Assembly: GCA_021817045.1 (NCBI GenBank)
Contig: JAKAWG010000010.1
Location: 34,211-98,210 of the forward strand
Source: Acidobacteriota bacterium
Lineage (GTDB): Bacteria > Acidobacteriota > Terriglobia > UBA7540
Length of the DNA: 64,000 nt
Reading direction: 5' to 3'
In this document: positions 8,959 to 37,382 of the stretch, piece after piece
Layout: every line of letters starts with the position of its first letter
Numbering within the stretch: the first letter of the stretch is position 1
Position numbers and translations under genes: made by a program
The notes under the pieces: model-generated
Database searches by the model: none
The model's input: the letters and a program-made list of their open reading frames with translations, nothing else
What the model was told of the DNA's origin: nothing

Positions 8959-9331
8959 TGGTGGAGGCGGGGGGAGTTGAACCCCCGTCCGAAAAGCCTA
9001 ACGGCTGGAAGACTACATGCTTAGACCGTTCGCTCGAAAGATTCGTCAGCGGCTCTCAGGAACGGACAAGAACGAACCGCCGACTAGCCTGATCCTCTTC
9101 CGTCGCCGGAAGAGATTCACCCCCTGGTTTCAGGCGGCAACCAAAGAGCTAGCCCGCTACATCGACATCTTTCTCCGCCCGGCGGGCCGGACGAAGAAGA
9201 CGCGCTACCTAATTAGGCAGCGAGAGCAAACTGCGTGTTGGCAGTTGTCTTGTTCCACTCCGATCACGGGTGGTGTGGCCCCCGGCATGCCTTCCAGGCG
9301 TAACAGCTTCCGTCGAAACCGGTACACCCCC
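8959..9331 (-). ncRNA. ssrA: tmRNA (transfer-messenger RNA)
   Basis: 5' end GGGGGUGUACCGGUUUCGACGGAAGC and 3' end CGGGGGUUCAACUCCCCCCGCCUCCACCA; 7-bp acceptor stem GGGGGUG/CGCCUCC closes; internal tag reading frame ...ANTQFALAA-TAA. Confidence 0.95.
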
Positions 9332-34159: not shown

Positions 34160-36343
34160 ATGATTGAAAGGGATTTCGATGTCTCCTTTGTTGCTGATCT
34201 CGCCTTGAGAGAGAAGCAGATTCAGCAGAACTACCGACCGGTTATCGCGGTCCACAAGTGGTTCGCTCGCCGTCCTGGAACACTCTTTAGAGCCCTTCTT
34301 CTCTCTGAGTTTGGCTCGCGCCCTCTGCGCGAGGCTTTCTATGAGGCCAACGACCTGAGGGGAAAACGGGTGGCGGATCCTTTTATGGGAGGCGGAACGC
34401 CGCTTCTTGAGGCAAACCGTATCGGCTGTGACGTCATCGGCTGCGACATCAATCCAATGGCATGCTGGATCGTTCGGGAAGAAATTGACCACATTGATCT
34501 TAGAGAATACCGAGCGTCGGCAAAGAGAATCCGGACACAGCTTGAGACGAGCATTGGTGACCTCTACAGAAGTACTTGCCTTTGCTGTGGTTCTCCGAAG
34601 GCACATGTTAAGTACTTTCTTTGGGTCAAGACGCAGCCATGCCCGAACTGCTATGCGAGCGTTGACCTTTTTCCTGGATATCTTGTTGCACAAAACCGGC
34701 GGCATCCCAAGAATGTCCTCGTTTGCGCGAGGTGTGGTGAACTCTGCGAATGCCAAGACCAGTTCAATCCGGGTAAATGTCAATTTTGTGGGGCGTGTTT
34801 AGTGCTTCGGGGACCAGCCAGCAGAAACTCGTGCCGATGTCCTCATTGCGGCGAGGTCATCAAGTATCCGAATCCAGGTCTCGGCGCACCTCGACACCGA
34901 CTGTTCGCTATCGAGTATCACTGTCCTGATTGTAAGGGCAGACACAAAGGCAGGTTCTTCAAGAGGCCAGACGAACGGGACCTTACAAAACTGTCTGAAG
35001 CTGAGGCACTGAGGAGCGGAATTACCGCCGAGTTTATTCCCTCAGATACGATTCCTGACGGGGACGAGACCGACAGACTCCACCGATGGGGATACACCTA
35101 TTACCAGCAAATGTTTAACGCACGGCAACTGGTCGGCCTAGAGTTCATCTGCCAAATTATCAGCCGCGAGCCGTGTGAGCGTGTCCAGCACGCTCTTGCC
35201 ACAAACCTGTCAGATTTGCTTCGTTACCAGAATATGCTTTGCCGCTATGACACCATGGCTTTGAAATCGCTAGACATATTTTCTGTCCATGGGTTTCCGG
35301 TGAGCCTGGTGCAATGCGAATCGAACATTTTAGGAATCCCTAATGGGCCGAAGGACGCTAGTATCGGAAGCGGAGGATGGTCAAACATTTCGGAGAAATA
35401 TGTTAAAGCGAAGGCGTATTGTGATCATCCGTTCGAGGTTCGCCACAGCGGCTCAAGGAAGTTGAGGGTTTTTATCAATGGTGAGTGGATCGGTGAATCA
35501 AGGAATGACTCGCTTGGGCGGGAATCTAGAGATGTGGACCTCAGGTGCGCAGACGCTGCTTCCGTTGCGATGACTCCAAATAGCTTGGATGTGGTATTGA
35601 CTGACCCCCCTTACTTTGGAAACGTTCAATATGCCGAGCTAATCGATTTTTGCTACGTCTGGTTGCGCCGTCTCGCAAGACGTAGCGAGCCGCTTTTCAC
35701 TCAGGCTTCCACGAGAAACTGCTGTGAGCTGACGGGGAATGAAAACATGAAGCGAGATCTTGCAAGCTTTACGGATGGACTTTCGAGAGCTTTTCAAAAA
35801 ATGTCCGAAGGCCTGAAGGCAGGGGCACCGCTGATTTTCACATATCACCACAACCTGCTCGAAGCTTATTACCCCATTGCCGTGGCAATCCTCGATTCTG
35901 GGCTGACCTGCTCAGCCTCGATACCGTGCCCTGCAGAAATGGGAGCCTCGATTCACATCAACGGAACAGAATCGTCCATAATTGACACTGTTTTCGTGTG
36001 CAGGAAAACTGGTACCACACGCCGCGAACTTATCGTGACCAGCGTTGAGGAGACTGCGGGTCTAGTACGGAAGGATTTGGTGAGGCTAACGGTTGGGGGA
36101 GTGAAACCGACGCGTGGCGATGTGCGCTGCATTGCCCGTGGGCATTTGATACGCCTCGCGATTTGGCACCTGCGGAAAGAGTGGGATTGCCGACTATCTA
36201 CTCGGTCAAGGCTAGCGGCCGTCGAACGATATGTCAACCAGCATGGAGGGTCGGCCGCCATCGAGAAATTCCTGGTCGGCATTCCAGAGAAGGCCAGAAA
36301 TCTCACGCACAACGTGCCAATGCCACTAGACCATTCAGCTTAA
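34160..36343 (+). CDS. DUF1156-like DNA adenine/cytosine methyltransferase with multiple zinc ribbons
   Basis: VHKWFARRPGTLFRALLLSEF, DPFMGGGTPLLEANRIGCDVIGCDINPMA (motif I), VVLTDPPYFGNVQYAELIDFCYVWLRR (DPPY motif IV), four CxxC-type pairs between the motifs. Confidence 0.8.
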   Translation: MIERDFDVSFVADLALREKQIQQNYRPVIAVHKWFARRPGTLFRALLLSEFGSRPLREAFYEANDLRGKRVADPFMGGGTPLLEANRIGCDVIGCDINPMACWIVREEIDHIDLREYRASAKRIRTQLETSIGDLYRSTCLCCGSPKAHVKYFLWVKTQPCPNCYASVDLFPGYLVAQNRRHPKNVLVCARCGELCECQDQFNPGKCQFCGACLVLRGPASRNSCRCPHCGEVIKYPNPGLGAPRHRLFAIEYHCPDCKGRHKGRFFKRPDERDLTKLSEAEALRSGITAEFIPSDTIPDGDETDRLHRWGYTYYQQMFNARQLVGLEFICQIISREPCERVQHALATNLSDLLRYQNMLCRYDTMALKSLDIFSVHGFPVSLVQCESNILGIPNGPKDASIGSGGWSNISEKYVKAKAYCDHPFEVRHSGSRKLRVFINGEWIGESRNDSLGRESRDVDLRCADAASVAMTPNSLDVVLTDPPYFGNVQYAELIDFCYVWLRRLARRSEPLFTQASTRNCCELTGNENMKRDLASFTDGLSRAFQKMSEGLKAGAPLIFTYHHNLLEAYYPIAVAILDSGLTCSASIPCPAEMGASIHINGTESSIIDTVFVCRKTGTTRRELIVTSVEETAGLVRKDLVRLTVGGVKPTRGDVRCIARGHLIRLAIWHLRKEWDCRLSTRSRLAAVERYVNQHGGSAAIEKFLVGIPEKARNLTHNVPMPLDHSA

Positions 36344-36350
36344 TCCATCA

Positions 36351-37382
36351 ATGCCATTAAATCCTTTCGAAGTTCCATTTTCGGAGCTCAAAGCGAATCC
36401 TGAGCCGTATGTTACCTCTGTGTTTTCCAACTTAATCTCTGAGTTTCTTGTCATGCCCAAAGGAGAGGGCTTTGTTGAGTATTCAGTCTTTGATGACGCA
36501 TACGAAAAACTCAAACAGGCCACCTCGGGCTTCCAACGAATTACCGCAGACGTAGTCCTCCCCGTAGCAATCACGTATCCGATCTCAATCGTGGTCCTTC
36601 GATCCATGCTGGGGTTTTCTCCCTCAGAATGGGCATACTTGGCAAGCCAGAAAGGGGGCACCGAGGTTACCCAAGGATTCGTGCGCTCATTTGACCGTAA
36701 AATCAGGATGCGACCTTCCGAGGCGTTGAAACTCTCTCGCATGGTCCTCGAAAGGCTCACGGTGCTTGTGGAGGCGGCTTGCCAACTCTTGAATGAGGGA
36801 TCTCCGGAAGTTGATTCTCGAAAAATCCATCGGCTGGATAAGGCAGACACAAAGAAAGGAGCTGACAGCATTCGGAGCCTTTCAGGGATTGGCGTACCTT
36901 ACTCGATCCTTCTTTACGAACGATTCCTCGGGAGGCCATTTGCCGGGCACCGGGATTCCGTGAGCGAGCTTGTCGGAGATAATCTGGAATTGGCAGTCGA
37001 GAACGTTCTCGACAAGGCCGGTATCAGTTACCGGAAGACGAAACGTGCCGAGCGAATTCCCGGCTTTGACCAGGCTCCGGATTTTATTGTCCCGAATGAA
37101 TTCAACCCCAAAGTAGTTATAGAGGCCAAAATCACCGAAGACGACGGAACGGCCCGAGATAAAGTCACGCGAATTCAGCACCTGGGCGAACTCAGCTTGG
37201 CCGGGCAGCCTACGGGTCAGCCGAAATATGAGGTCATAGCTTGCATTGGTGGCCGGGGGTTTGGTGTTCGCCGAGAAGATATGCGGAAGATGCTGCTTGC
37301 CACGAGAGGAAAGGTATTCACTTTAAGAACGATTGAACGCATGGTGGATTGTTCCGCATTGAAGAATTCTCGAACAAAGTAG
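36351..37382 (+). CDS. Putative restriction endonuclease, PD-(D/E)XK type, partner of the upstream methyltransferase
   Basis: GDNLELAVENVLDKAGISYRKTKRAERIPGFDQAPDFIVPNEFNPKVVIEAKITEDDGTARDKVTRIQHLGEL: PD...(E)xK-like catalytic signature; starts 7 nt after the methyltransferase stop. Confidence 0.7.
   Translation: MPLNPFEVPFSELKANPEPYVTSVFSNLISEFLVMPKGEGFVEYSVFDDAYEKLKQATSGFQRITADVVLPVAITYPISIVVLRSMLGFSPSEWAYLASQKGGTEVTQGFVRSFDRKIRMRPSEALKLSRMVLERLTVLVEAACQLLNEGSPEVDSRKIHRLDKADTKKGADSIRSLSGIGVPYSILLYERFLGRPFAGHRDSVSELVGDNLELAVENVLDKAGISYRKTKRAERIPGFDQAPDFIVPNEFNPKVVIEAKITEDDGTARDKVTRIQHLGELSLAGQPTGQPKYEVIACIGGRGFGVRREDMRKMLLATRGKVFTLRTIERMVDCSALKNSRTK

Follow-up and report, generated by a model that had tools for sequence, protein, structure and literature searches.

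A compact BREX-related methylase and a PD-(D/E)XK-like nuclease as a candidate two-gene restriction-modification system

Can a DNA methylase of the BREX-related type act with a single nuclease as a simple restriction-modification system? The question is raised by two adjacent genes in a 64,000-nucleotide stretch of an Acidobacteriota genome (assembly GCA_021817045.1, contig JAKAWG010000010.1, positions 34,211 to 98,210), called the window here, to which coordinates refer unless another locus is named. A recent survey of BREX used the insert-type recognition domain of the type-3 methylases as a query, by sequence and by structure, and reported no homologues outside BREX (PMC12839542). Full-length homologues of the window methylase, insert included, stand outside BREX in hundreds of genomes, paired with one nuclease gene. 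The open-access literature searched held no paper on such a gene pair; predicted methylase entries in REBASE are likely.

The gene pair and its genomic setting

The first gene (34160..36343, plus strand; ATG at 34160, TAA at 36341-36343) encodes a 727-aa DNA methyltransferase (MTase) of the compact DUF1156/BREX-related type, with the motif order X-I-insert-IV. The second, on the same strand at 36351..37382, encodes a 343-aa restriction endonuclease candidate, an assignment drawn from conservation, an AlphaFold model, Foldseek comparison and weak Pfam matches. The initial annotation, made from the letters alone, had placed the nuclease 7 nt after the MTase stop and quoted from it the motifs PDFIV, VVIEAK and RDKVTRIQ; the start at 36351 lies there, and the motifs read as quoted. 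Both reading frames are kept at 44-69% identity in unrelated phyla, and chance is thereby excluded for both.

With a GC content of 0.519, where the whole window has 0.579, the pair lies below all 608 sliding 3.2-kb windows, and its GC3 is 0.55 against 0.67-0.76 across nine neighbouring genes, in agreement with the lower GC noticed at first reading. The pair is flanked on the left by genes for an ABC-type exporter and on the right by those for a GH3 glycosidase and a GDSL lipase. No convincing promoter, terminator signal or flanking direct repeats were found around the pair. Elsewhere in the window, at 8959-9331 on the minus strand, is a tmRNA gene with the tag peptide ANTQFALAA.

The methyltransferase and its zinc-rich insert

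Within the MTase, motif X (HKWFARRP, residues 32-39, in the DUF1156 region) is followed by motif I (DPFMGGGT, beginning at D73), a large insert and motif IV (DPPY, beginning at D482), the wide separation of DPFMGGGT from DPPY being as first described. Motifs I and IV are invariant across 85 sequences. The protein scores above the Pfam cut-off for N6_N4_Mtase, and the DPPY form of motif IV is consistent with methylation of adenine at N6. Its description as DUF1156-like holds as a relation, 40 of 44 homologues matching Pfam DUF1156 (PF06634) at E <= 0.01 (best 5.9e-6), but the window protein itself reaches 19.1 bits against a gathering threshold of 24 bits.

The insert can be divided into two parts. 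The zinc-ribbon part, codons 139-259 (34574..34936, plus strand), is delimited by conservation, Pfam and the structural model, and holds all six CxxC pairs quoted in the initial annotation: C140/143, C161/164, C189/192, C207/210, C227/230 and C255/258. The rest, codons 260-455 (34937..35524, plus strand), aligns to the insert of the long methylases and is proposed, by analogy with them (PMC12839542), to be a target-recognition domain. Codons 139-259 are rich in beta-strands in the predicted structure (pLDDT 82-95), some family members match zinc-ribbon Pfam models, and a plasmid homologue is annotated as an 'adenine-specific DNA methylase containing a Zn-ribbon'. When the full MTase model was searched with Foldseek, all matches were generic Rossmann methyltransferases, which is uninformative on the insert.

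Six CxxC pairs would provide cysteines enough for three zinc sites, the partnering of cysteines at each zinc being a matter of deduction from conservation. Across 85 homologues, C140 and four complete pairs never vary. C143, C255 and C258 are lost together in 11 of the 85, a pattern suggestive of a single zinc site formed by the outermost pairs, 140/143 and 255/258. Since the insert (mean identity 0.56-0.65) is almost as conserved as the catalytic core (0.68), most family members are predicted to read the same target sequence, which would thus be shared by distant hosts.

The nuclease

The AlphaFold model of the nuclease, built from 60 window and locus sequences (mean pLDDT 85, pTM 0.52), divides the protein into a helical N-terminal domain, codons 1-199 (36351..36947, plus strand), and a catalytic core, codons 200-300 (36948..37250, plus strand). 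The former, delimited by model and conservation, possibly serves in DNA recognition or dimerisation. The latter, identified from AlphaFold, Foldseek and conservation, contains E213, D244, E258 and K260 and is the best-conserved part of the protein, with a mean identity of 0.76. In order, the model shows a helix at 200-222, strands at 245-247 and 255-261, a helix at 265-283 and a strand at 294-300; the spacing D244-x13-E258-x-K260 fits D-(10-20)-ExK in a predicted alpha-beta-beta-alpha-beta core. P243-D244 falls within PDFIV, and E258 and K260 within VVIEAK. All 85 nucleases have D244 and K260, and 84 have E258. The nuclease of L078 has Gly at the position of E258 (VIGAK) and is otherwise intact.

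The best Foldseek matches in the PDB are mostly PD-(D/E)XK proteins, with BstEII leading and EcoT38I, BsoBI, the R2 endonuclease and Can2 among them; they are weak (best E 8e-3). Sub-threshold Pfam matches recurring among members, TPD (57 of 60), EcoRII-C (28) and PDDEXK_11 (20), all belong to PD-(D/E)XK families. Topology, structural matches and conservation of the D, E and K residues agree on the PD-(D/E)XK-like nuclease first proposed. Searches of PDB sequences with the nuclease, single or as a profile, gave nothing meaningful, and no family in Pfam, NCBIfam or PADLOC was matched at cut-off. Among Pfam restriction families, EcoRII-C gave the window nuclease 13.3 against 25 bits, and DpnII and BanI did not match it; PADLOC defence models left it unmatched and gave just three marginal matches among 60 members. 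The family would add to what genome annotation could recognise as defence.

Linkage and distribution of the pair

Among about 300 genomes of the host's phylum, full-length nuclease relatives occur in a handful of genera. A GTDB-wide scan gave 308 relatives, the best 80 of which were kept for locus analysis; these come from Thermodesulfobacteriota, Myxococcota, Bacillota, Nitrospirota, Verrucomicrobiota, Planctomycetota, Pseudomonadota, Acidobacteriota, Gemmatimonadota, Chloroflexota and other phyla. Cultured strains are among the carriers, such as Desulfocicer vacuolatum DSM 3385 (L046), Desulfacinum hydrothermale DSM 13146 (L053) and Halochromatium roseum DSM 18859 (L093). Linkage is near-absolute. 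The MTase gene lies directly upstream of the nuclease gene in 80 of these 80 loci, some MTases being cut by a contig end, and in the other complete loci examined; within the phylum, nine of nine genomes with a full-length MTase of the subfamily have the nuclease gene adjacent, one of them frameshifted. Conservation of the two genes together, on which the initial annotation had staked its reading, is thus borne out.

In most loci the two genes overlap by 14-32 nt (median 20), consistent with translational coupling. A short intergenic gap is found instead in the window and in three other Acidobacteriota loci (L030, L072 and L080). The window groups with all three in the nuclease tree and with L072 and L080, the two of them taken into the MTase tree, in the latter. 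The two proteins have diverged together: their pairwise distances correlate with r = 0.87, and none of 2000 permutations reached as high a value. No third gene recurs in the flanks of the 80 loci kept from the 308 relatives. The hypothesis of a third component was rejected: just one flanking cluster exceeds four loci, occurring in 11, and it looks like generic two-component signalling proteins.

More distant relatives of the nuclease adjoin methylases of other kinds. In L188 a full-length relative (G432, 33%) faces, in convergent orientation, a methylase of a different type, and on a Microbacterium plasmid one (28.6%) overlaps by 1 nt a 308-aa site-specific methyltransferase. A gene for a Shedu-family immune nuclease is located near this plasmid pair (L194, 7199-7594). 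L010, L011 and L025 carry relatives of the C-terminal domain only, which adjoin an N6_N4 methylase; that of L011, alone, exceeds the Pfam cut-offs for DpnII and BanI endonucleases. Such module shuffling, in which a methylase neighbour is constant and the methylase family changes, is the behaviour expected of a restriction endonuclease and, read from gene order and homology, gives the strongest functional hint.

Shuffling extends to the methylase. A sister MTase subfamily of about 30% identity (G219, G339, and plasmids of Tabrizicola, Acidiphilium and Rhodococcus) directly adjoins a protein of 250-290 aa that is annotated as hypothetical or DUF956 and contains PDF...E[LIV]KGLA[WY]PGR, a PD-(D/E)XK-like signature that makes it a candidate nuclease. 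This sister two-gene module (L117; L118; L196, 1543-4493; L197, 3123-6106; L198, 3196-6049) is apparently undescribed. It resembles the window pair in placing a compact MTase of the same superfamily directly beside a candidate PD-(D/E)XK protein, and differs in that its nuclease is unrelated in sequence, its gene order is variable and its plasmid MTases have two CxxC pairs. In the tree the two compact groups and the Hma-like group stand apart from one another with full support, which does not extend to the order of the deep branches. With different nuclease partners in the two compact groups, compact methylases of the superfamily would appear to be paired with at least two nuclease families.

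Mobility, phage context and decay

The module is patchy, even within a genus, and mobile. The nuclease is present in none of three same-genus genomes and in 8 of 61 relatives (host included). Copies from the same family are 61-62% identical, compared with 69% for a Desulfobacteraceae copy; together with the patchy presence and the atypical GC, this is in keeping with the horizontal acquisition proposed earlier. For comparison with an empty site, the same-genus genome G397 retains the GH3 neighbour (about 75% nucleotide identity) and has no nucleotide match upstream of it, and the ABC transporter is absent from same-genus genomes at the threshold used; for these reasons no clean insertion boundary can be read.

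Copies on IMG/VR contigs lie in phage-like or defence contexts. In L139 the pair adjoins the small subunit of a phage terminase, in L137 it is flanked by an integrase and a Prim-Pol/D5 protein, and in L016 it has ABC-3C defence genes as neighbours. On the viral contig L141 (4956-8755), an MTase of the subfamily (49%) stands without a nuclease beside a tyrosine integrase; here a phage or element may be shielding its own DNA. Viral contigs L145 and L146 each encode a compact methylase (727 and 751 aa) that has 4-5 CxxC pairs and shares about 28% identity with the MTase of the window. Searched with the MTase, INPHARED phage records gave no homologue at E 1e-20.

Decay is also evident. Remnants of the module are found in G184 and G342, the nuclease has internal stops in L044, L088, L094 and G430 and a frameshift in G024, and the MTase is frameshifted or split beside an intact nuclease in L056 and L186. 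Draft-assembly error is likely for these last two and possible for the rest. In L035 (4757-10839), an N4/N6 methylase gene and the beginning of the compact MTase are duplicated in tandem; of the two MTase copies, the second is broken.

Proposed function and alternatives

The pair is very probably a two-gene, type II-like restriction-modification system with a BREX-related methylase. The compact restriction-modification system of the initial annotation is well supported by linkage (80/80, best 80 of 308), by the PD-(D/E)XK fold and residues, and by kin of the nuclease that swap methylases. Such a system would be carried as a mobile cassette. The MTase would methylate one particular sequence of the host genome, most likely at adenine N6, and would recognise it through a target-recognition domain formed by the zinc-rich insert that separates motifs I and IV; the PD-(D/E)XK nuclease would cut DNA in which the same sequence is unmethylated, e.g. 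incoming phage or plasmid DNA, and might in this way protect against phage. Some observations run counter to a restriction-modification reading. Foldseek E-values are weak (best 8e-3) and the pTM of the nuclease model is 0.52; the MTase insert is about as conserved as the core, whereas restriction recognition domains often diversify fast; and a broken MTase beside an intact nuclease, as in L056 and L186, would be toxic if real rather than the assembly error that is likely.

Gene overlap and correlated divergence would fit a complex as well, type I- or IIG-like or as in BREX, where the methylase also recognises targets for defence; specificity would then lie with the MTase alone, the nuclease having none of its own. 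The MTase family does work in multi-protein BREX-related systems (PMC12839542). This arrangement is given a small chance, because full-length nuclease relatives paired with unrelated short methylases fit an independent enzyme better, the nearest structural matches include the stand-alone type IIP enzymes BstEII, EcoT38I and BsoBI, and the locus is without an ATPase or translocase. A more far-reaching proposal would make the module a surviving simple ancestor or a stripped-down derivative of the BREX type 3/DUF499-related methylase, its triple zinc-ribbon insert a new DNA-recognition module that reads one sequence across phyla and directs, in complex, a nuclease lacking specificity of its own; we hold it to be improbable. 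The pair could instead be a satellite of BREX-related (DUF499/Hma) machinery encoded elsewhere, needing a helicase and an ATPase in trans, and the host genome does hold a complete HmaA, HmaB and HmaC set on contig C169 whose MTase is homologous to that of the pair. That host system has its own long MTase, however, the compact MTase group is set apart from the Hma group with full tree support, and no third gene recurs beside the pair in the 80 loci kept, so that dependence of this kind is very unlikely.

Who benefits from the pair is a separate matter. Copies beside a terminase small subunit (L139) and beside an integrase and Prim-Pol/D5 protein (L137), along with the orphan MTase by an integrase (L141), would suit mainly an addiction or competition module, or a phage-borne tool that excludes other phages, rather than host defence. 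Most copies lie on ordinary chromosomal contigs with unrelated neighbours, however, which makes such a main role unlikely; biochemically it would still be restriction-modification, as it concerns benefit and not mechanism. A regulatory or housekeeping methylase beside an inactive or degenerate nuclease is also hardly probable. The broad, partly phylum-wise distribution and the conserved insert do suggest a constant target, and nuclease copies are damaged in L044, L088, L094 and G430 (internal stops) and G024 (frameshift), but D244 and K260 are kept in 85/85 nucleases and E258 in 84/85, the nuclease core has a mean identity of 0.76, and the module is patchy even within a genus.

Relation to BREX-related, Hma and type II systems

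In the methylases of BREX type 3 and of the DUF499-related systems, motifs I and IV are separated by an insert of about 250 aa that contains a four-cysteine zinc finger; in the long Hma-like methylases the recognition insert is large and carries one such finger or, rarely, two, and three HTH domains lie at the C-terminus (PMC12839542). One such system is complete in the host genome (contig C169; locus L165, 4142-14127), with an HmaA-like helicase, a 1001-aa HmaB-like methylase and an HmaC-like ATPase. In a profile comparison with seven long Hma-like methylases, that of C169 included, the window MTase aligned over 598 columns (probability 100, E 3.5e-55); the HmaB/'BR-MTase', BrxXI (PglXI) and COG1743/DUF1156 methylases are its closest known counterparts. 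The order HKW[FW]ARRP, motif I, large insert, motif IV is common to the compact MTase and the Hma-like and BrxXI methylases, as are zinc cysteines in the insert (PMC12839542). These alignments mark the MTase as a short-form relative of the DUF1156 methylases of BREX-related (DUF499/'Hma') systems. It has 727 aa against about 950-1050 aa for the Hma/BrxXI proteins and is without their C-terminal extension: the alignment to the Hma-like profile stops at template column 704 of 913, the MTase ending at residue 727, and the missing C-terminal columns, about 200, correspond to the region of the published triple HTH of the long methylases.

The zinc-binding insertion, called unusually large in the initial annotation, is in its size and zinc cysteines already known in the family (PMC12839542); what is particular is the number of CxxC pairs, expanded to six where the Hma-like proteins examined have 0-2. 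Only this expansion and the short C-terminus distinguish the compact MTase. As a module, the pair has a dedicated nuclease partner and is without the DUF499 ATPase or helicase of Hma systems. Membership of the BREX-related (DUF499/Hma) systems was rejected, no DUF499 ATPase or SWI2/SNF2 helicase being present in the window neighbourhood and none recurring in the 80 loci (best of 308), as was membership of BREX type 3, the BrxC-type ATPase, PglZ and BrxHII being neither in the window neighbourhood nor recurrent in homologous loci. With its two proteins, the pair offers a model for testing how methylases of this family recognise their targets, free of six partner genes, and a handle on the connection between BREX-related systems and plain restriction-modification.

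Unlike classical type II systems, the pair has a BREX-related MTase, not one of the Dam- or beta-class short type, and a nuclease that matches no Pfam, NCBIfam or PADLOC family at cut-off. It is like them (BstEII, EcoT38I, BsoBI, DpnII, BanI, EcoRII) in having separate, adjacent MTase and PD-(D/E)XK nuclease genes and no ATPase. The MTase carries SAM-binding and catalytic motifs, the separate nuclease-fold protein has intact catalytic residues, and the two are adjacent in 80/80 loci (best 80 of 308), with no ATP-dependent translocase or specificity subunit, as in a type II system.
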